In this document: positions 1 through 9,025 of the stretch, one piece after another
Numbering within the stretch: position 1 is the first letter of the stretch
Layout: each line of letters begins with the position of its first letter
Assembly (NCBI GenBank): GCA_902542925.1
Contig: CACBWF010000007.1
Location: forward strand, 1 to 35,467
Source of the DNA: an uncultured Alphaproteobacteria bacterium
GTDB taxonomy: Bacteria; Pseudomonadota; Alphaproteobacteria; Methylaequorales; Methylaequoraceae
Length of the DNA: 35,467 bases
Direction of reading: 5' to 3'
Position numbers and translations under genes: made by a program
The notes under the pieces: model-generated
Seen by the model: the letters and a program-made list of their open reading frames with translations, nothing else
Databases searched by the model: none
Told to the model about the DNA's origin: nothing

Positions 1-1099
1 GTGAAGTATTACCTTTGTCTGCAACAAACTCCATAGAAACACCACTTTCAAGTCTCTGATTTATTCCAGAGTGTCTTAATGAATACATCGGTCTTTCTAA
101 TCCGTTTTCGTTTATGTAGAGTTCGTAATCTACTGCAAGGGAACGAAAGTTATTAGAAACTCTCTGTCGTATCTTTTCCAAGTTGTCTCTATCCTCTAAA
201 AAAGGAAAAAACAAATAATCATCTGGTTTTGGATTAGGTCTTCTTCTCAAAATCCTATTAAGATAAATGTGTTTATGAAAAAATGGGTGGATATGAACAT
301 TTTGAGGTTTCCCAGTTTTTGTTTGTCCAATAACTACAATCATTCCATCTTCACCTCTACGAACATCAGGAAGGAAATGAATATCTTTATGTTTTATTCT
401 CAACACCTCCTTGCCAGGTCTCACCAGACCAGAACGACAAAACTGTATGAAATCACTTAAATCTTGGTAGAAGGGTTTATCTCTTTTTCTACTTGCATTT
501 GATAGTTTCTCAATCTCTTTTTCCTCATAAGGGGGAACTTCTTTTGCAAGTCTGTTAAGTTTAACAAGAGTAGGTTCATAACTTATCAAACCTCTTTTTC
601 TTGCATACTTACAAATGTTTGAAATCAGTTGTTGATATTTGATTAAAGTTTGAGGTGCTTTATCTTCTTCTTTTTTTGCGATGATACTATCTCTTAATGC
701 ATTATTCACCTTATCCATTTCTCTAATATCTAAACCACCGAAGTAATGAATAAAATGGTTTTTCCATTTACCAAGTTCTCTTTGTCCTTCAGTTCCTTTT
801 TCTTTTATTCTTAACTTAATGAAGTCATTTGCAATCTTGTCAAACTTATATGTTCTTCTTACTACCTTCTCATTTTCATCTGGGATTTCATTCTTAATCC
901 AAAAGTCTTTATAAACTTTGTATGCAAGTTTTAATGCCTTCTTATAGTTCTCTTCTTTGAGAGATTGATATATGTTTCCACTTTTTGTGTGGTTTAGTCC
1001 AACATAAAATCTTACATACCAATATTTACTTCTTTCCCTTTTATAGATGACTACATCTTTTGTTTTAGGAACACTTATAGTTTTTAATATCTTTGTCAT
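1..1099 (-). CDS. int: Tyrosine recombinase / phage-type integrase, partial (C-terminus off the left edge)
   Basis: Manual minus-strand translation from ATG at 1099 is open to the window edge: MTKILKTISVPKTKDVVIYKRERSKYWYVRFYVG...GLVRPGKEVLRIKHKDI...IGQTKTGKPQNVHIHP...RPMYSLRHSGINQRLESGVSMEFVADKGNTS. It has the box I Arg, the TKTGK beta-hairpin Lys and a YSLRH box II. Missing from the ORF track because its stop lies outside the window. Confidence 0.9.
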   Translation of the reverse strand, partial: MTKILKTISVPKTKDVVIYKRERSKYWYVRFYVGLNHTKSGNIYQSLKEENYKKALKLAYKVYKDFWIKNEIPDENEKVVRRTYKFDKIANDFIKLRIKEKGTEGQRELGKWKNHFIHYFGGLDIREMDKVNNALRDSIIAKKEEDKAPQTLIKYQQLISNICKYARKRGLISYEPTLVKLNRLAKEVPPYEEKEIEKLSNASRKRDKPFYQDLSDFIQFCRSGLVRPGKEVLRIKHKDIHFLPDVRRGEDGMIVVIGQTKTGKPQNVHIHPFFHKHIYLNRILRRRPNPKPDDYLFFPFLEDRDNLEKIRQRVSNNFRSLAVDYELYINENGLERPMYSLRHSGINQRLESGVSMEFVADKGNTS

Positions 1100-1123
1100 T
1101 CTTTTCTCAATCAATACAAGTTC

Positions 1124-1179
1124 AGTATAATCTATAAAAAGTGTGTAGTCAAAATATAGGTGTTCCCCTAGTTGTGTAT
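1124..1179 (-). promoter_or_regulatory. Integrase promoter with island repeat element copy A
   Basis: Minus strand TTGACT (1152-1147), 17-nt spacer, TATACT (1129-1124), 25 nt upstream of the integrase ATG. Repeat GGTGTTCCCCTAGTTGTGTAT (1159-1179, plus orientation) lies directly upstream of the -35. Confidence 0.7.
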
Positions 1180-1305
1180 GAATGTTGAAATAATATTGTT
1201 TAGGTTTTGAGGGGGTGGGGTTCGCAGAACCGAACCCACATATACCGATGTATCTTTATTGCATTTATAGTTTATAAAATACTTTTTAGATTAAAGGGGG
1301 TAGGG

Positions 1306-1503
1306 TTATTTAATCTCTGTCCATTCATCAACATCAAACTCCATATCACCCTCTCTTGGGAAATCGCAATCATAAGGATTACCACCTTGTGCGTTCCATA
1401 TCTTACGAAACTTTTCATACAAATCGTTTTCTGATTTTGCTTTTAGTTCAACATCACCAAAGTTTGTTAAAGTTCTTTTTATAGTTATTTTATACTTTTT
1501 CAT
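1306..1503 (-). CDS. Small hypothetical protein (65 aa)
   Basis: ORF; beta-rich N-terminus MKKYKITIKRTLTNFGDVELKAKSENDLYEKF; collinear with neighbouring minus-strand genes. Confidence 0.65.
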   Translation of the reverse strand: MKKYKITIKRTLTNFGDVELKAKSENDLYEKFRKIWNAQGGNPYDCDFPREGDMEFDVDEWTEIK

Positions 1504-1517
1504 TATGCAATCTCCAT

Positions 1518-2066
1518 CTACTTACTGTATTTTATCGCACTTAAGTCAAATGGATTTTGTGTAAGTCTAAACAGATTACCTAACTGACCTTGTTTAAGAA
1601 AATCTTCATCAGTCATCTTTTTTTCTGATTGTTGGTATGAAACTTTAACTTTAGGTTGTGTGTATGCAATATTACTTATTGGAAACGCCATATCAACATC
1701 TTCATTCCATTTTTCTGAATACTTTTTAGTATTAGATGAAAGATTAAACTTCTTTACTAATGCATTCTCAAAATCATCTCTTTGGTCTTCTTGAAACCAA
1801 ACCTTTAGAAAGTTTGTCATCAAGTAAAGATACTCACTACTACCGAAGAACACTTCTTCTTCATTATAAAACTTAGTAGATATCTTTACTATTTGAGACT
1901 TATCACCTTTAATGGCATCAACGATTTGACCCCAGAAATGCATTCTCAAAGAACTGATACTTGCATTAAAACTCTTGGGTCTTACATTTACATTTAAGTC
2001 AAAAGTTTCTTGTGTAAAGTTGTCATAAGAAACAATCACATTTATTTTTTCATTTATTATTTTCAT
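1518..2066 (-). CDS. Hypothetical protein (182 aa)
   Basis: ORF with upstream AG-rich RBS-like leader (AACAATCAGAAAGAAAGAGAGAAAAATATG); no family recognised. Confidence 0.75.
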   Translation of the reverse strand: MKIINEKINVIVSYDNFTQETFDLNVNVRPKSFNASISSLRMHFWGQIVDAIKGDKSQIVKISTKFYNEEEVFFGSSEYLYLMTNFLKVWFQEDQRDDFENALVKKFNLSSNTKKYSEKWNEDVDMAFPISNIAYTQPKVKVSYQQSEKKMTDEDFLKQGQLGNLFRLTQNPFDLSAIKYSK

Positions 2067-2097
2067 ATTTTTCTCTCTTTCTTTCTGATTGTTAATA

Positions 2098-2370
2098 TTA
2101 TTTGTTAAAAATCTTTGCGTGGGTAAAACCTACAAAACGATTTCTCTTCTCGTCAAAATAGATGACTGACTTATTCCCAAATGTCCCATTTGAATCAAGG
2201 ACAATCGTTGGGTCTATTTTCATCTTTTTCTCAAGTTTTTTGAGTTGTCCATTAGAAAATGGACAGTTCGTTTCCTTTAACCATTTATTAAAACCTCTGA
2301 TTGTTTTATGCATTCCCATAAAGTTCTCATCAAAGTCATTTTTTAAGTTTTCATAAAATATTGATTTCAT
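2098..2370 (-). CDS. Hypothetical protein (90 aa)
   Basis: ORF; leader AACAATCAGAGAGAAAGGAAAAAAAATG with RBS; promoter at 2404-2432. Confidence 0.7.
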   Translation of the reverse strand: MKSIFYENLKNDFDENFMGMHKTIRGFNKWLKETNCPFSNGQLKKLEKKMKIDPTIVLDSNGTFGNKSVIYFDEKRNRFVGFTHAKIFNK

Positions 2371-2403
2371 TTTTTTTCCTTTCTCTCTGATTGTTAAAAT
2401 ATT

Positions 2404-2459
2404 ATTTTAGCATTTGATTGGGGTTAAATCAAAAATAGGGTGTTCCCCCAGTTGTGCAT
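2404..2459 (-). promoter_or_regulatory. Leftward promoter with island repeat element copy B
   Basis: Minus strand TTGATT (2432-2427), 17-nt spacer, TAAAAT (2409-2404). Repeat AATAGGGTGTTCCCCCAGTTGTGCAT (2434-2459) directly upstream. Confidence 0.7.
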
Positions 2460-2564
2460 ATATTACTTGTATTACTAACTCAATCTGGTAGAATAATAGG
2501 TGTTATTTCCTTCCAAAAAATATCACACAACTTAATACTAACCATTAACCCAGAGAGGTGTTTT

Positions 2565-3155
2565 ATGACTAATGAATGTGGATTGTATGGTCGTGTTTCA
2601 ACAGTAGGATTGGGACAAGACCCTAAACAACAAATAGATGTCTTGAAATCTGTTTGCGAACAAAAGAGTTGGAATATATTTGGAGAATATGTTGATTACT
2701 GTTCTGGTGCAAAATCAAGAAGACCAGAACTTGATAATCTTATTCAAGATTGTATCTCAAAAAAGATTAACACTATCGTTTGTTGGAGTGTTGATAGGTT
2801 CAGTAGAAATGCAGAACATTTCATTTCAACAGTTAATGAACTTCAATCACTTGGTATTACTTTTTATTTTCACCAACAACAAATAGACAGTTCTACTCCT
2901 ATGGGAAAATGTCTTTTGCAAATGTGTTCAGTTCTTGGAGAGTTAGAACGAACCCTTATCCGTGAGAGAATATCTATGGGAGTGAAAACTAAAATGTCTA
3001 AGGTTGGAACTTGGGGGAGAAAATCTAATCTCACTCCTCAAGTAAAAAAGAAAGTGATTGAACTACGAAAACAAGGTTTTGGATTTAACAAAATCGCAAG
3101 AGAACTAAAAGTCGGTAATGGAACAATCATTAACTTTTTGAAGGAGGTTGCATAA
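2565..3155 (+). CDS. Serine recombinase, resolvase/invertase family (~196 aa)
   Basis: In-frame start MTNECGLYGRVSTVGLGQDPKQQ inside ORF 2454-3155. Catalytic motifs YGRVST, DRFSR and ELERTLIRERI, plus a C-terminal HTH (GFGFNKIARELKVGNGTIINFL). RBS-like GAGAGGTG upstream of 2565. Confidence 0.93.
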   Translation: MTNECGLYGRVSTVGLGQDPKQQIDVLKSVCEQKSWNIFGEYVDYCSGAKSRRPELDNLIQDCISKKINTIVCWSVDRFSRNAEHFISTVNELQSLGITFYFHQQQIDSSTPMGKCLLQMCSVLGELERTLIRERISMGVKTKMSKVGTWGRKSNLTPQVKKKVIELRKQGFGFNKIARELKVGNGTIINFLKEVA

Positions 3156-3640
3156 TGAAAAAACTATCTATTTTATTTTTAACTTTGTTTCTATTTTCTT
3201 GTTCCAAGAAACAACTAATAACTGGTGGAACTGGTGCTGGTGTAGGTCTTGGGTCATATGCAATATTCAAATCGTTTATGGGTCAATCTGGAACTGGTGG
3301 AGATATGAAGACTATGATTGCAATCACAACTATCGGAACTGTTATGGGTGCGTTAATGGGAAGTGAAATCGCAGACAATATTATTGAGGAAGACAACAAC
3401 TATTCCCAGAGAATAATGAACTCTGCATTTGAAGATGATTTACGACAAGTATGGAGGGGTCAAAATCAAGAAATATTGATTACACCTCAACAACAAGTTG
3501 ATGTTCCAAGTATGTCATCAAGTGAATGTCGTAAGTTTGAGTTTCAGTTTGAGGAAATGGGAACGATTAAAAGAGGTTCTGGAGTTGCGTGTAAAGACGG
3601 AAACAAGAACTGGAGAATGTTGGGTGAGGAAATGTTATGA
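3155..3640 (+). CDS. Lipoprotein with glycine-rich, glycine-zipper-like segment
   Basis: MKKLSILFLTLFLFSCSKK lipobox, then GGTGAGVGLGSYAIF and TTIGTVMGALMGSEIAD; start overlaps the resolvase stop. Confidence 0.75.
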   Translation: MKKLSILFLTLFLFSCSKKQLITGGTGAGVGLGSYAIFKSFMGQSGTGGDMKTMIAITTIGTVMGALMGSEIADNIIEEDNNYSQRIMNSAFEDDLRQVWRGQNQEILITPQQQVDVPSMSSSECRKFEFQFEEMGTIKRGSGVACKDGNKNWRMLGEEML

Positions 3641-3873
3641 CCAATAACCCAACTCCATTTTATGCAATCGCAAATAGAGATAATAAACTTCTCACTTCTC
3701 ATAAAGATAATCCTAAATGGGTAGATGAGAGTGATAGTGAAATCTTATATGTTGATACAAAAAAAGATGCAGAGGAAATCATTAAGAAAAATAATCTTGA
3801 TGATGCAAGAATAATCCTCTGTGTATCTGATGGGAGAGGAGATGTTGAACATCTCTTTAATAGTTATGTTTAA
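3637..3873 (+). CDS. Hypothetical protein (78 aa)
   Basis: ORF, ATGA overlap with the upstream gene (translational coupling). Confidence 0.7.
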   Translation: MTNNPTPFYAIANRDNKLLTSHKDNPKWVDESDSEILYVDTKKDAEEIIKKNNLDDARIILCVSDGRGDVEHLFNSYV

Positions 3874-3985
3874 GTTCTTATTAGGAATAGTTGTAGGTTT
3901 ATTTCTTGCAGAAAACTACAACTATACTTTCACCGATTTATTTGACTATTTGGAGAGGATTATAGGTAGTCTAAACAGTTCCTAA
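3866..3985 (+). CDS. Small membrane protein (39 aa)
   Basis: Manual translation MFKFLLGIVVGLFLAENYNYTFTDLFDYLERIIGSLNSS; overlaps the 3' end of the 3637 gene; hydrophobic N-terminus. Confidence 0.5.
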   Translation: MFKFLLGIVVGLFLAENYNYTFTDLFDYLERIIGSLNSS

Positions 3986-4036
3986 AAATCACTCTCTAAA
4001 ATAGTATGTTTTCTGGGATTTTATTTTCCAAAAAAA

Positions 4037-4069
4037 GGGTAGTCTAAAACAGTAGTGATAGACTACTTT
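4037..4069. terminator. Bidirectional terminator between convergent genes
   Basis: GTAGTCTA (4039-4046) / TAGACTAC (4059-4066) 8-bp inverted repeat flanked by A-run and TTT. Confidence 0.55.
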
Positions 4070-4071
4070 AT

Positions 4072-4362
4072 TCACCGATTATAAAAACTTTTTTGATGTT
4101 CATATCGTTTTTGACCAGCAGACTTAACACCTTCACTTGTATGAGTTAAAAATCCGTCATGCCATCTTCTTCCGTCTTTAACTCTTACAACTTCATTTAA
4201 TGTTGTTGATTGATAGTTTTCATCCCCAAGACGATTTTTTATATGGGTGTAAAAATCAAGTGTGTCTTTCTTCCCAAGTTTTGACTCTAAATCTTTGTAT
4301 GAACTTGCATCCACTTCTATATCAAAGTGAATAGTTCTTTCTCCAGACACTCTAAACTTCAT
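4072..4362 (-). CDS. Hypothetical protein
   Basis: ORF 4072-4419; the in-frame start MMKFRVSGERTIHFDIEVDASS looks more plausible than the upstream Met (approximate). Confidence 0.6.
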   Translation of the reverse strand: MKFRVSGERTIHFDIEVDASSYKDLESKLGKKDTLDFYTHIKNRLGDENYQSTTLNEVVRVKDGRRWHDGFLTHTSEGVKSAGQKRYEHQKSFYNR

Positions 4363-4615
4363 CATATTCATCCTCAAGGTCAAGGACACCTTCATCATCT
4401 TCGTATTCAATATCCTCACAAAGTTCTTTTAGTTTGTCTGAATAAAACTCATCCACACGAACTGGTCTTTGTAGAGTTAAGTGTCTGTTCCCAGAACCAT
4501 CTGCTGAATGGTCAGTTTCATAAAGTCCCAACATCTTTTTCACTTCATCAGACTTTCCTTCTTTTGGAGTGAGATGTATATACTCAATCTTTTTTTTTCT
4601 AATAGTTAGTTTCAT
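4352..4615 (-). CDS. Hypothetical acidic-tailed protein (~87 aa)
   Basis: Start MKLTIRKKKIEYIHLTPKEG at 4615 with GGAG RBS inside ORF 4352-4660; C-terminus EDIEYEDDEGVLDLEDEYDEV. Confidence 0.65.
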   Translation of the reverse strand: MKLTIRKKKIEYIHLTPKEGKSDEVKKMLGLYETDHSADGSGNRHLTLQRPVRVDEFYSDKLKELCEDIEYEDDEGVLDLEDEYDEV

Positions 4616-4648
4616 ATATTTTCTCCGTTTATTGTTAGTTAATATTTT

Positions 4649-4753
4649 GAAGAAGAACACTTTGGAAACTTCAAAACGGGTTCCAAAACCTAATCATCTT
4701 AGTCTCTAAAGTGTTTCTTGTGATTTTCGGTTTGTCCAAAGTGTTCGTTCTTC
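4649..4753 (-). ncRNA. Structured intercistronic RNA element S1
   Basis: GAAGAAGAACACTTTGGA (4649-4666) pairs with TCCAAAGTGTTCGTTCTTC (4735-4753), one bulge. Sequence- and structure-similar to S2 at 5068-5166. Confidence 0.5.
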
Positions 4754-4767
4754 ACCCTTATGGATTT

Positions 4768-5031
4768 TTAGTTTTGAGGTGAATGTTTTTTATCAAAGTA
4801 GTTATATACTGAGAAAAAAGTAGAAATATATCGTTTCAGATTTTCGTCATTATAACCACCATCATCATCTACATAGTTTGTCAGTTGAACGACAGCATTT
4901 TGAAGTTCTTGGAGTTCAGCAACATTTGTTGGATTAAATACTTTTGAGTTTTCTTCACATAAACTTTCAAGTGTATTCTTACCAGTAGAACTATCAATAC
5001 TGTTCGCATATAAGTTAGGTATATTTTTCAT
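4768..5031 (-). CDS. Hypothetical protein (~87 aa)
   Basis: Probable start MKNIPNLYANSIDSSTGKN at 5031 inside ORF 4768-5190; the upstream part of the ORF lies in structured leader S2. Confidence 0.6.
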   Translation of the reverse strand: MKNIPNLYANSIDSSTGKNTLESLCEENSKVFNPTNVAELQELQNAVVQLTNYVDDDGGYNDENLKRYISTFFSVYNYFDKKHSPQN

Positions 5032-5067
5032 TTTTATATTCCTTATTTTATTAGGGTTATTATTATT

Positions 5068-5166
5068 GAGATAAACACTCTGGTGTCTTAAAGAGTCCAT
5101 ACAGAACCAAACAAAAAGTGTCTTAACTGTTTCTCTTTGTTTCGGTTTCACCAGAGTATTTCTCTC
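5068..5166 (-). ncRNA. Structured 5' leader RNA element S2
   Basis: GAGATAAACACTCTGGTG (5068-5085) pairs with CACCAGAGTATTTCTCTC (5149-5166). Positioned at the predicted transcription start of promoter C, upstream of the start codon at 5031. Confidence 0.5.
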
Positions 5167-5171
5167 TATCT

Positions 5172-5227
5172 TATTATGCCATATTTTCACAAGTAATCAA
5201 AAATAGGGTGTTCCCCTAAAAGTGAAT
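5172..5227 (-). promoter_or_regulatory. Leftward promoter with island repeat element copy C
   Basis: Minus strand TTGATT (5200-5195) with CATAAT at 16 nt or ATAATA at 17 nt. Repeat AATAGGGTGTTCCCCTAAAAGTGAAT (5202-5227) directly upstream. Confidence 0.6.
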
Positions 5228-5245
5228 AGCATTTAAGATATTTCT

Positions 5246-6160
5246 ATGTTAAAAATATTTATGGCACTTTCTGAAATGGAAAAAAGAATACTGCAACTTC
5301 GGTTTAATACAGAGAGTATTTCTAATGCAAAAAAAATAGATTACCAAGAATATCGTTTATCCAAAAAACAAATCATTTCAAAACTTGCAGAAGAAGGACA
5401 TAAAGTTTCTATGATTGAAATCACAAACTTTCTAAAATCCAAACTTGGGTTTAGAAAAAGTTTTGATTATGGGGGTGAAGAGAAAAGGTCATTTGTAAAA
5501 GGTCGTCCATCAAAGTTCTATAAAACAAATGATGGAGTAGAACTCAAACATCAGTTTGGACTTTATATGTATTGGTATTTATTTTTACAACTTGCAATAA
5601 AAGAAAAAAGAAAAATAGATTGGTCAAAATATAAGGACTGGGGAGATGCAAAATCTATTGCAAAAACTGATTGGAGAGATTGGTGGGAAAAACATAAACT
5701 TCTTTTTGATTTGAAAACAAATAATGGAAAGTTGAAATATGAAATGGTGTTAAAGAAACCAGAATATGAAAGTATCTATTATGCACACAAAGTTTATAAG
5801 ATGAAAAAAGAGAATGAGGACTTATCCTTTTATGAACTTGGAAGAAAACTTGAGGTTCATAAAAATGTAGAAAAAAGAAAACCTTTGGGAGTAATCACAA
5901 CAAGCACAGTTTGGAAAAGATTTACTCAAAAAAAAATGAAATCTATTGAGAAAAAAGGTTTGATTGCAGACTTTAAGTTTCATCAAAAGTTAAGTGATAA
6001 AGAATGGATTGAAAAATATCCAGAAGATGCAAAGAGGATATTAGCACAACTTGACCAGAAGAGTCTGAAGAAACAAATGTTTATGTTTTATCATCGTGCA
6101 GAAAGAATATTAGAGGGTGTGTGTGAGGGTCGTTTCCCAGAACCAAGGAAGTGGAAATAG
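5246..6160 (+). CDS. Hypothetical protein (304 aa), possible DNA-binding N-terminus
   Basis: ORF; N-terminal LSEMEKRILQLRF...KKQIISKLAEEGHKVSMIEITNFLKSKLGF looks HTH-like; aromatic motif WSKYKDWGDAKSIAKTDWRDWWEKHKLLFD. Confidence 0.8.
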   Translation: MLKIFMALSEMEKRILQLRFNTESISNAKKIDYQEYRLSKKQIISKLAEEGHKVSMIEITNFLKSKLGFRKSFDYGGEEKRSFVKGRPSKFYKTNDGVELKHQFGLYMYWYLFLQLAIKEKRKIDWSKYKDWGDAKSIAKTDWRDWWEKHKLLFDLKTNNGKLKYEMVLKKPEYESIYYAHKVYKMKKENEDLSFYELGRKLEVHKNVEKRKPLGVITTSTVWKRFTQKKMKSIEKKGLIADFKFHQKLSDKEWIEKYPEDAKRILAQLDQKSLKKQMFMFYHRAERILEGVCEGRFPEPRKWK

Positions 6161-6432
6161 TGATAGAGTTTTTAATGCATCTCCTTATTCTTGGTGCAGT
6201 CATTCCACCAGTATTTTCTTTGTGTCTTTATCCGTGGTGGTGGTTATTTGATAATACAAAAGTAGTTGATAGTTATTTTAAGAAGAACTTTCATTCAAAG
6301 AAATATGGAAAGTTATTTCATATTTGTTTTTCTGGAGTATGGGTGATATTTATTTTTTCACTTCTTGGGTTATGTATTTGGTTGTTTGTTTTCGTTATGG
6401 GTTATTTACTTCCAATATTGGGTTATGACTAA
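6151..6432 (+). CDS. Small membrane protein (two or more TM helices)
   Basis: ORF overlapping the stop of the 304-aa gene, GTG start; hydrophobic segments HLLILGAVIPPVFSLCLYPWWWLF and VWVIFIFSLLGLCIWLFVFVMGYLLPIL. Confidence 0.65.
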   Translation: MEIVIEFLMHLLILGAVIPPVFSLCLYPWWWLFDNTKVVDSYFKKNFHSKKYGKLFHICFSGVWVIFIFSLLGLCIWLFVFVMGYLLPILGYD

Positions 6433-6518
6433 AAAAATAATCCTCATAAACAATCAAATCGGATGAACACCGAAGTATATTTATTTAACCTTTTTTTTGA
6501 TTTTTACGCAGACAAAAA

Positions 6519-6569
6519 AAAGAGGTGAATAAAGTTAAAAATGATTAAAAAACTTACGCACCTCTTTTT
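6519..6569. terminator. Bidirectional terminator-like inverted repeat
   Basis: AAAGAGGTG (6519-6527) / CACCTCTTT (6559-6567) with A- and T-runs, between convergent genes. Confidence 0.55.
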
Positions 6570-6616
6570 CCCTAACAAAATGATTTGAGAAAATGTTAAA
6601 ACTATTTAGGTTTTAA

Positions 6617-6769
6617 TCACTTTTTGTAAGAAGAAACTTCATTCATAATCATACGACTTAAATAATGCGTTAAAGTGTATCCATTATCATACGCAACTTG
6701 TTTGATACTATCTTTCAAGTCTTTATCAAGACGCATATTTATTCTATCGTTTTTAATATTTACATTCAT
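6617..6769 (-). CDS. Ribbon-helix-helix (Arc/CopG-like) protein, 50 aa
   Basis: Manual translation MNVNIKNDRINMRLDKDLKDSIKQVAYDNGYTLTHYLSRMIMNEVSSYKK; RHH pattern (beta strand INMRLDKDLKDSIKQVA). Below the ORF-track length cutoff. Confidence 0.7.
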   Translation of the reverse strand: MNVNIKNDRINMRLDKDLKDSIKQVAYDNGYTLTHYLSRMIMNEVSSYKK

Positions 6770-6793
6770 AACCTACCCCTTATAAGTGTCGTT

Positions 6794-7030
6794 TCATTTA
6801 TATTTATAAGACCCATTAACTAATCTGTCGTATTCTGCGTCAATAGTTGTGTCTTTATGTTTTCCAGTTTGAACCTTGCGTAAAGCATCACGCATATTAG
6901 GAATACTTGCGTAAGAGTTTGATGGATTTTTCTTCAAATGGAAATCAAGGTTGTCTTTTTTCTTTTGCAGTTCCGTCTCCGACCTCTTCTCTAACTCTCT
7001 TGCCTTTTTGTAGAAATATTCTCTATCCAT
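6794..7030 (-). CDS. Hypothetical protein (78 aa)
   Basis: ORF, overlaps the stop of the upstream gene. Confidence 0.6.
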   Translation of the reverse strand: MDREYFYKKARELEKRSETELQKKKDNLDFHLKKNPSNSYASIPNMRDALRKVQTGKHKDTTIDAEYDRLVNGSYKYK

Positions 7031-7487
7031 TTATCTCTTCCTTAACTTCTTTTTCTAACTCATCAACTGTTCTCTCTAACTCATCTTTCATAGAATGGTT
7101 TGTATCTTGTGCAAGTAAAGTTAGTTCTTGTTCATCAGTTAGTTCTTCTTCATCGTCTTTTGATAATGTTATGAGTTGAGTAATCTTGTATGATTTACCA
7201 AAATCTTCTGTTGGTTTAATCTCTGTATTCACAAGTTTGGTTTTAACTTTTTCAATAAAGTCATCTTTGTATAAATGCATCTCATTTGAAATCTTGTTAT
7301 AGAGAGTTTTTAAGTTGGTGCATTTTGTATTGTCGTAATCAACTCTTGCGACCTCATCTTTATCTTCTGGTCTCGCAATCATAGATGGGTTTGTGTATTT
7401 TGTTTTAATAACAACTTCGGTGAAGTCATTTAGTTGAACATTATATTCAATATCGTATGTCGTTATATAAGATTTTAACTCACTCAT
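7023..7487 (-). CDS. Hypothetical protein (154 aa)
   Basis: ORF with acidic/helical C-terminus; TAAGGAAAC RBS-like leader. Confidence 0.7.
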   Translation of the reverse strand: MSELKSYITTYDIEYNVQLNDFTEVVIKTKYTNPSMIARPEDKDEVARVDYDNTKCTNLKTLYNKISNEMHLYKDDFIEKVKTKLVNTEIKPTEDFGKSYKITQLITLSKDDEEELTDEQELTLLAQDTNHSMKDELERTVDELEKEVKEEING

Positions 7488-7605
7488 TATTTGTTTCCTT
7501 AATCATTATTCTAAACTCTTAGGATTGGATTAGAATGTGTATCAAATGGTTTCTTGATTGATACTTCATATATTTATTGCGTGTCTGTATGACCCTTATT
7601 TTGGA

Positions 7606-7929
7606 TTACATTACAGACCTCTTTAACGCATCATATATCTTCATATTCTTGTAGAAGTTTTTGTTGGGTTTAACTTTTGTTTCTAACCATTTTTCTAACA
7701 ACAAAAGATATTCAAAACCTCTTTTTGCATCTTGTAGTTTGTCGTCTATTTCTTTGTATTGTTCATTCAACTCTGGTCGTATGTTTTCGTTTCCTGTTTC
7801 TAAATACTCATCAATAATAATCTGATTGATGTTGTATAAATCACTTTCAAGTTCTGTAATCTTATTCTGTCGTTCTATAACTAAATCATTCCAAATATCC
7901 CAAGAAACACTATATTTGTGTTTGGACAT
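7606..7929 (-). CDS. Hypothetical coiled-coil-like protein (107 aa)
   Basis: ORF with AAGGAAAG RBS; heptad-like ITELESDLYNINQIIIDEYLE. Confidence 0.7.
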   Translation of the reverse strand: MSKHKYSVSWDIWNDLVIERQNKITELESDLYNINQIIIDEYLETGNENIRPELNEQYKEIDDKLQDAKRGFEYLLLLEKWLETKVKPNKNFYKNMKIYDALKRSVM

Positions 7930-7971
7930 TTTCTCTTTCCTTATTTTGTATTCTAAAGAATCATCTAACCC

Positions 7972-8446
7972 AAAATCACTTGCGTGATTTTACTTCGTCA
8001 AATCAAGTTTATTTTTATTTTGTTAAGGGATTAAATCTTGTGGAAGTTTCTTGCAGACATAGAGAACCTTATGCAAGGTTCATCTACGAAAGAACTTGTG
8101 TTTAGTTCCCATTAACATATTCAGTTAGAGCAACTTATTTACATAAGATGAGTTTGGAAGTCCGATTATAACTTTTACACTCTTGATACTTCGGTGAGAG
8201 GTCTAACTGCAAACTGAAATACAGTTAGTTCTCTGATAGTTTTCTATCGTCTTTTCTAATAATGTTTAGACACCATTTTAGTTTGGGTGTTTCATAATAA
8301 AAATATTGCAACCTATCTTACGACACTCTGGTAGTCGCAACCCTTAAAATAAAATAGGTAATCATCAACTTGGGTTTTGGACACCACCCAGATGATTATG
8401 AACAGTTTGATTTAATGAAAGGAGAAACCATTTTTAACATTTTCTC
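7972..8446. ncRNA. ORF-free, hairpin-rich block; candidate large structured RNA (strand unresolved)
   Basis: No ORF of 60 aa or more in this interval, in an otherwise gene-dense island. Consecutive stems include AAAATCAC/GTGATTTT (7972-7991), GAACCTT/AAGGTTC (8064-8081) nested in AAGTTTCTT/AAGAACTT, CTAACTG/CAGTTAG (8203-8228), GATAG/CTATC (8235-8248), and TAATCATC+TGGGT/ACCCA+GATGATTA (8359-8398). Confidence 0.4.
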
Positions 8447-8509
8447 ATAGTCCATAATCATCTATAACTATTTATAAAAGTTGTGAGTCTAATGTGAGTT
8501 TTTTTTTCA

Positions 8510-8533
8510 AATAGTGTTCCCCCAGTTGCATAT
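8510..8533. repeat. Island repeat element copy D (degenerate)
   Basis: AATAGTGTTCCCCCAGTTGCATAT, same orientation as copies A-C; no convincing -10 box beside it. Confidence 0.6.
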
Positions 8534-8554
8534 AGAACAAATGATGAACAAACA

Positions 8555-8587
8555 AAAGTGTATTGAAAGTGTATTGAAAGTGTATTG
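8555..8587. repeat. Three perfect tandem copies of 11-bp AAAGTGTATTG
   Basis: 8555-8565, 8566-8576 and 8577-8587 are identical. Confidence 0.9.
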
Positions 8588-8659
8588 AACTTATTGCACT
8601 ATTGTTTCCCTTATTTTCTGTTGAGTGAATCCTCTGAAACCCTTTGTGAGTCTCCCTAA

Positions 8660-8691
8660 AACAAACAAGGGGTGACAATCGCCACCCCTTG
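8660..8691 (-). terminator. Intrinsic terminator of the tmRNA gene
   Basis: CAAGGGGTG (8666-8674) / CACCCCTTG (8683-8691) followed on the minus strand by TTTGTTTT. Confidence 0.8.
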
Positions 8692-8926
8692 CCGATGAGA
8701 CTTCTGTTGCCCGGCGTCTCACAGCCGCGCTTACCTAATATTTAAGCAGCGAGTACCATTTCATTATCGTTGGCACTTATTATGTTTTAGTCCAATAACG
8801 ACGGAACTACACCGAGCAAAGTTTTGATAATTCCACGCACGTCGATCCTATATCGCCCCCTTTAAACTATGGTGGAGGCGCCGGGTACCGCCCCCGGGTC
8901 CGCCTCGATTCCTCATCAAACATTTA
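8690..8926 (-). ncRNA. ssrA: Two-piece (circularly permuted) alphaproteobacterial tmRNA; outer ends approximate
   Basis: Acceptor piece on the minus strand: GGACCCGGGGGCGGTACCCGGCGCCTCCACCA (ending at 8870), T-stem CCGGG/CCCGG. Coding piece begins GGGGGCGATATAGGATCGACG (from 8860). The 7-bp acceptor stem contains the G3-U70 pair. Tag reading frame GCCAACGATAATGAAATGGTACTCGCTGCTTAA (8774-8742) = ANDNEMVLAA. Confidence 0.95.
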
Positions 8927-9025
8927 TTGCTATAGCTGAAAAATCAGCACTTTAAGAATATATTAAAAAAAAAAAAATTAAAGAATATTATTTTTGTATT
9001 TGTTTTTTCAAACAAAAAAGTTTTA

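Follow-up and report, generated by a model that had tools for sequence, protein, structure and literature searches.

In phages P2 and P4, the late promoters depend on Ogr/delta, a small element-encoded activator with a short site at approximately -50 upstream of several promoters of the mobile element. P2 Cox is an excision factor which doubles as a regulator. XisF4 of Pf4 binds promoters of the element that encodes it and activates them (PMC7379572), and in KplE1 intS is under the control of the element's own recombination proteins (PMC2951348). Furthermore, islands integrated at ssrA were described in Dehalococcoides (PMC3146451).

Here we describe an island of approximately 8.6 kb at the beginning of a 35,467-nt stretch of alphaproteobacterial DNA (the window, i.e. 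the whole stretch analysed). It has a tyrosine integrase gene, which is cut by the contig end, at one end and the tmRNA gene at the other. A repetitive element is present in this island in three copies adjoining predicted leftward promoters (A, B and C), and a related sequence (D) is located at the att end:

1147..1180, minus strand: element A, found by the repeat finder and the pair search; adjoins the -35 box of the integrase promoter
1124..1152, minus strand: predicted promoter A, TTGACT (1152-1147), 17 nt, TATACT (1129-1124)
2427..2460, minus strand: element B; adjoins the -35 box of the promoter of the 2370->1306 genes and is at the same time part of the spacer before the plus-strand resolvase gene
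2404..2432, minus strand: predicted promoter B, TTGATT, 17 nt, TAAAAT, with TG before the -10 box
5195..5228, minus strand: element C; adjoins the -35 box of the promoter of the 5031->4072 genes and lies also upstream of the plus-strand 304-aa gene
5173..5200, minus strand: predicted promoter C, TTGATT, 16 nt, CATAAT, with TG before the -10 box
8508..8533, minus strand: element D, degenerate, in the att-end region and without a promoter of the A-C geometry

The arrangement is similar to that of Ogr/delta in that a short site lies upstream of several promoters of a mobile element. The first-pass annotation had pointed to this likeness on the basis of a TRC-N12-ACA motif; motif and spacing are found in A (TAC) and B (TGC), but C has TTC-N12-ACA and D has TGC-N10-ACA, and none of the copies has the dyad TGT-N12-ACA which is typical for Ogr/delta sites near -55. 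Moreover, Ogr/delta promoters have a poor -35 box and need the activator, whereas here the -35 boxes are good (TTGACT or TTGATT) and the -10 boxes match at five of six positions. In contrast to the P2/P4 late promoters, an integrase and small genes would be controlled and no late genes were seen. The assembly, 54% complete, yielded no protein with the Ogr/delta zinc finger PF04606, though one could be present on a helper phage, and Pfam and PHROG scans of the island proteins did not reveal the P4-like satellite genes psu, sid, alpha, delta, epsilon or alpA. A resemblance to Ogr/delta is not supported by these comparisons.

In systems of the XisF4/Cox type, one element-encoded protein serves excision and acts on promoters of the same element, with sites at att and at promoters. 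Here, A, B and C adjoin promoters and D belongs to the att-end region; the half of D which is kept at other att ends, however, differs from the half common to A-C, and no excision factor of this type was recognised among the island proteins in the Pfam and PHROG scans. KplE1 intS is comparable in having a regulatory site directly at the integrase promoter; however, in KplE1 the attL region overlaps the promoter, whereas here no att is visible anywhere near the integrase promoter and the site recurs at two further operons. XisF4 and KplE1 intS are best regarded as working analogies, not as memberships. With the Dehalococcoides islands our island has the site-specific insertion at ssrA in common, while lineage, integrase and cargo are different, a distinction made by description.

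Genes and leaders of the island

The genes and leaders of the island are as follows:

2..1114, minus strand: tyrosine integrase, open frame with the likely ATG at 1099, PHROG phrog_1 E 7e-24; the contig end cuts the gene
1306..2370, minus strand: three small genes of 90, 182 and 65 aa, open frames
2565..3155, plus strand: small serine recombinase of the resolvase/invertase type, 196 aa, Pfam Resolvase E 4e-36, PHROG DNA invertase E 1e-44
4072..5031, minus strand: C operon, open frames of 87, 87 and 96 aa with no assigned function
4616-4770, minus strand: second hairpin leader inside the C operon, fold z -3.81
5032..5197, minus strand: structured leader of the C operon, fold z -3.81
5246..6160, plus strand: 304-aa protein, weak PHROG matches only
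6617..6769, minus strand: 50-aa ribbon-helix-helix (RHH) protein, Arc-like PHROG E 4e-4; CopG/Arc Pfam matches weak and below the cut-off
8693..8986, minus strand: tmRNA gene (ssrA) of the permuted alphaproteobacterial type

In Pfam and PHROG scans the genes of 1306..2370 had no family match. The 304-aa protein had no Pfam match either, and its fold prediction was unusable (mean pLDDT 36). Relatives of the integrase, the 304-aa protein or the resolvase were not found in the viral contigs searched. The phage records contained nothing matching the integrase or the 304-aa protein and only distant recombinases for the resolvase, and in the plasmid records nothing matched the island. Among the genomes and contigs compared, no intact sister island was detected.

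Several additional features of these genes were noticed. The two leaders of the C operon are long hairpins which are alike in layout and contain the similar stretches AAACCGAAA and CCARAGTGTT; they are possibly duplicated structured RNAs. Two gene leaders (2067-2107 and 2369-2409) have TTAACAATCAGA...AGAAAG in common immediately before the start codons (repeat family D6), which is perhaps a common ribosome-binding leader. In the loci L075/L122 (genome G328), L076 and L084 (G409), distant relatives of the integrase are located within approximately 1 kb of a relative of the serine recombinase, and this pair may be a recurring module.

The repeated element and its link to predicted promoters

A, B and C rank first in the output of the repeat finder and form one family of direct repeats of approximately 32 bases, with 76% (A) and 85% (C) identity to B over 34 nt. 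When dispersed same-strand pairs of 26-mers with at least 21 matches, including at least 8 matched G/C, were searched for in positions 1-9000, the pairs A-B, B-C and A-C were returned and nothing else; the same search returned 0 pairs in 20 second-order Markov sequences. D, with the sequence TCAAATAGTGTTCCCCCAGTTGCATAT, is without AA, GG and TG relative to B (three small gaps) and has the 15-mer GTGTTCCCCCAGTTG in exact common with it; it is a real but weak copy. Of the four copies in the same orientation that had been proposed, A, B and C were thus recovered in full and D in degenerate form, the start of A being at 1149 instead of 1151. The spans are 1149-1179 for A, 2429-2459 for B and 5197-5227 for C.

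Read on the minus strand, the copies have the sequences ATACACAACTA-GGGGAACAC-CTATATT-TTGACT (A), ATGCACAACTG-GGGGAACAC-CCTATTT-TTGATT (B) and ATTCACTTTTA-GGGGAACAC-CCTATTT-TTGATT (C), with a spacing of 7 nt between GGGGAACAC and TTGA in all three. The conserved block extends from approximately -66 to the -35 box and ends there; past TTGAYT the sequences of A, B and C are unrelated. We scanned positions 1-8640 on both strands for -10 boxes located 16-18 nt from TTGA, with at least five of six matches, A at the second and T at the sixth position. Such boxes were found at three of the 149 TTGA sites (plus strand 74, minus strand 75), and these three are exactly A, B and C. The background rate of an equally good -10 box at this distance is approximately 0.02 per site. 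Since the -10 boxes fall outside the repeat, this coupling is the strongest evidence for a link between the element and promoters. Promoter-like sites are not enriched overall in the region (24 found, 38 expected), and the promoters at A, B and C, which had been read in the same way in the first-pass annotation, hold as consensus matches, with predicted starts near 1117, 2397 and 5166. Being so near to the consensus, the promoters might be active constitutively, and the copies might have arisen by recent duplication and have no function, though their neighbours are unrelated.

A is located 50-80 bp upstream of the likely integrase start, and since the 3' end of the 65-aa gene lies on its other side, only leftward control, that of the integrase, is sensible. 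B precedes the ATG at 2370 with a short leader between them, and the leader hairpin of the C operon starts near the predicted transcription start of promoter C (fold z -3.8). Since B and C also lie in divergent spacers, effects of B on the resolvase gene and of C on the 304-aa gene are possible.

The position of B, approximately 0.1 kb upstream of the start codon of the serine recombinase, had led to the proposal that the copies are crossover sites of this enzyme. An imperfect palindrome was, however, not found: the dyad scores of A-D are 2.7-3.1, compared to a median of 2.6 and a 95% point of 3.7 for random sequence, so the element is not palindromic. In addition, with four direct copies flanking the gene, recombination would remove the recombinase together with most of the island, and the link to the -10 boxes would be left unexplained. 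We consider crossover sites extremely improbable.

At the RNA level, the minus strand of B and C matches the terminator pattern and folds to -7.0 and -8.5 kcal/mol, respectively, and A is placed after the end of the operon starting at B. This would fit a small intrinsic terminator insulating each leftward promoter from read-through. On the other hand, A (-4.1 kcal/mol) and D (-2.0 kcal/mol) barely fold, the conserved flank CACAACT would have no explanation, and the GGGG side does not vary, whereas the CCC side is eroded without compensatory changes. The last observation suggests that the sequence is read by a protein rather than being formed into a hairpin, and a role as terminator appears very unlikely.

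In the collections searched, the element was not seen outside the island. Its core 12-mer occurs three times in the genome (assembly 54% complete), always in the island, and the element was absent from 31 other genomes of the order. Exact 15-mers and 16-mers of it gave 14 and 38 hits, respectively, in viral contigs, none of which has the remainder of the element; a longer gapped pattern had no hit in viral contigs and two in genome contigs, both in unrelated taxa. The phage records did not contain the element. When other integrase islands and the ssrA cassette arrays were searched for dispersed repeats in this way, repeats of att modules, coding repeats and isolated pairs came up, and no promoter-linked repeat family was seen. 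The absence from viral contigs and phage records also bears on the idea that the plus strand of the element is the promoter of a single-subunit RNA polymerase of a helper phage. The contiguous conservation, the motifs AATAGGG/TATAGG and the plus-strand genes following B and C would be in line with such a promoter, but A and D would drive no plus-strand gene, the conservation extends approximately 20 nt beyond the presumed start, and the coupling to minus-strand promoters would not be accounted for. We give this idea hardly any credence.

The degenerate copy, the attachment end and a structured RNA

The part of the island next to ssrA contains, in addition to D, the following features:

7990..8345, minus strand: structured RNA region with an RF01712 match at 8187-8284, based on fold, Rfam match and alignment
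8555..8589, no strand assigned: tandem 11-bp repeat AAAGTGTATTG, 3.2 copies, candidate integrase arm sites
8637..8670, minus strand: ssrA attachment core, with further copies in the cassette arrays at ssrA in relatives

In the 21 ssrA loci which were compared, a common core (CCTTGTTTGTTTTAGGGAGACTCACAAAGGGTTT and variants) follows the 3' end of ssrA, and many of the loci have locus-specific tandem repeats of approximately 11 bp after it. The core is present in 22 of 32 genomes with one to four copies each; repeated copies at ssrA are direct, are spaced by 0.3-5 kb and include the ssrA 3' end. In our island the tandem repeats at 8555-8589 are followed by D, and the left half of D is found at the corresponding place in cassettes of genomes G013 and G001 and, more loosely, in G004. 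For this reason D is, at least in part, a feature of the att end.

In 17 genomes of the order (L124-L140), tandem arrays of short cassettes were observed downstream of ssrA. A direct copy of the ssrA 3' end with the core delimits each cassette, and each is followed by its own version of the tandem repeat of approximately 11 bp. Two of the arrays, those of G016 and G018, contain remnants of a related integrase with 54-68% identity along stretches of 40-48 residues, and a remnant of the 107-aa island protein, 23 residues long, is present in that of G021. The remnants are located at L136 12109-12228, L131 14717-14860 and L137 15060-15128, the integrase being represented in two genomes and the 107-aa protein in one. 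Judging from these remnants and the likeness of the att ends, the island belongs to a family of ssrA elements.

The position of D after the att core and the 11-bp repeats, and the recurrence of its left half, TTTGTTCTATATGCAACTG, at the same place in the G013 and G001 cassettes, raise the question whether a recombination protein (the integrase or an excision factor) binds D at the att end and also regulates the promoters at A, B and C. XisF4 (PMC7379572) and IntS/TorI of KplE1 (PMC2951348) would be precedents. However, the part of D common to other cassettes is not GGGGAACAC, the part common to A-C, integrase arm sites are better matched by the 11-bp repeats, and the scans mentioned above yielded no excision factor. 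A recombination protein in this role is conceivable, but we regard it as unlikely.

D is located upstream of the structured RNA. The gap 7930-8508 has a fold z of -3.7, and the match to RF01712 (Methylobacterium-1 RNA) on the minus strand scores 41.9 bits, with a gathering threshold of 40. The family goes back to a description of 2010 based on Methylobacterium and marine sequences (PMC2864571). We found it in five other alphaproteobacterial genomes (L065, L066, L067, L068, L069), in four of which a tyrosine integrase is located approximately 0.1-0.8 kb away, each time with a tRNA gene nearby. In an alignment of the six sequences, conservation extends approximately 200 nt past the Rfam model, and both sides are changed in 30 of 75 predicted pairs, as counted without shuffled controls. 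The family model thus looks truncated. Based on the first helix and a TATAAA at 8476-8471, the RNA should start near 8465. Since there is no -35 box at the right distance from this TATAAA, D is not claimed as the promoter of the RNA.

Proposed operator and its significance

The comparisons above make it fairly probable, on the grounds of sequence, that the leftward promoters of the integrase gene and of two accessory operons have one operator in common, whose regulator would be encoded by the island or by a helper. According to this proposal, A, B and C would be copies of one regulator-binding site adjoining the -35 boxes of three leftward promoters of the sigma-70 type, which would drive the integrase gene, the 2370->1306 operon and the 5031->4072 operon with its structured leader. 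One protein would bind ATRCACAACTRGGGGAACAC at approximately -43 to -66 and so switch the three units together. Of the earlier suggestion that a single site coordinates integration and two accessory operons, the shared site at three leftward promoters is supported, and its core is, within the 54%-complete assembly, restricted to the island.

Binding of a protein, the identity of this protein and the choice between activation and repression are all inferred. The fixed 7-nt phasing upstream of the -35 box suggests activation, while the good -35 boxes and the TG-extended -10 boxes, which should work alone, suggest repression; we lean slightly to activation. Since the site is absent from the remainder of the host genome and all three core 12-mers are within the island (as judged from an assembly 54% complete), a host regulator is unlikely and the regulator would most likely be encoded by the island or come from a helper phage. 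The recognisable DNA-binding proteins of the island are the resolvase and one small protein, the 50-aa RHH protein (6617-6769), which is a candidate regulator. It is tempting to go further and to propose that the integrase, the two accessory operons with the structured leader and, via D, the long RF01712-type RNA are activated together by one protein, which a helper phage may provide. This would amount to an induction programme of an ssrA-integrated element and to a new island-specific regulon, but we consider such a programme decidedly unlikely.

In summary, the repeated putative operator is real as a repeat, coupled to predicted promoters and island-specific; as a familiar kind of thing it is a modest find, and the RF01712-type RNA and the tandem ssrA att-cassettes across the order are the more notable by-products. 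RF01712, which was described without known function, lies beside integrases in several genomes and is seemingly longer than its current model, and ssrA is a repeated insertion site with cassette arrays in this order. Last but not least, concrete DNA sites and predicted start positions can now be named for the proposed coordination of integration with accessory genes, so that the regulator can be hunted by a simple binding assay.
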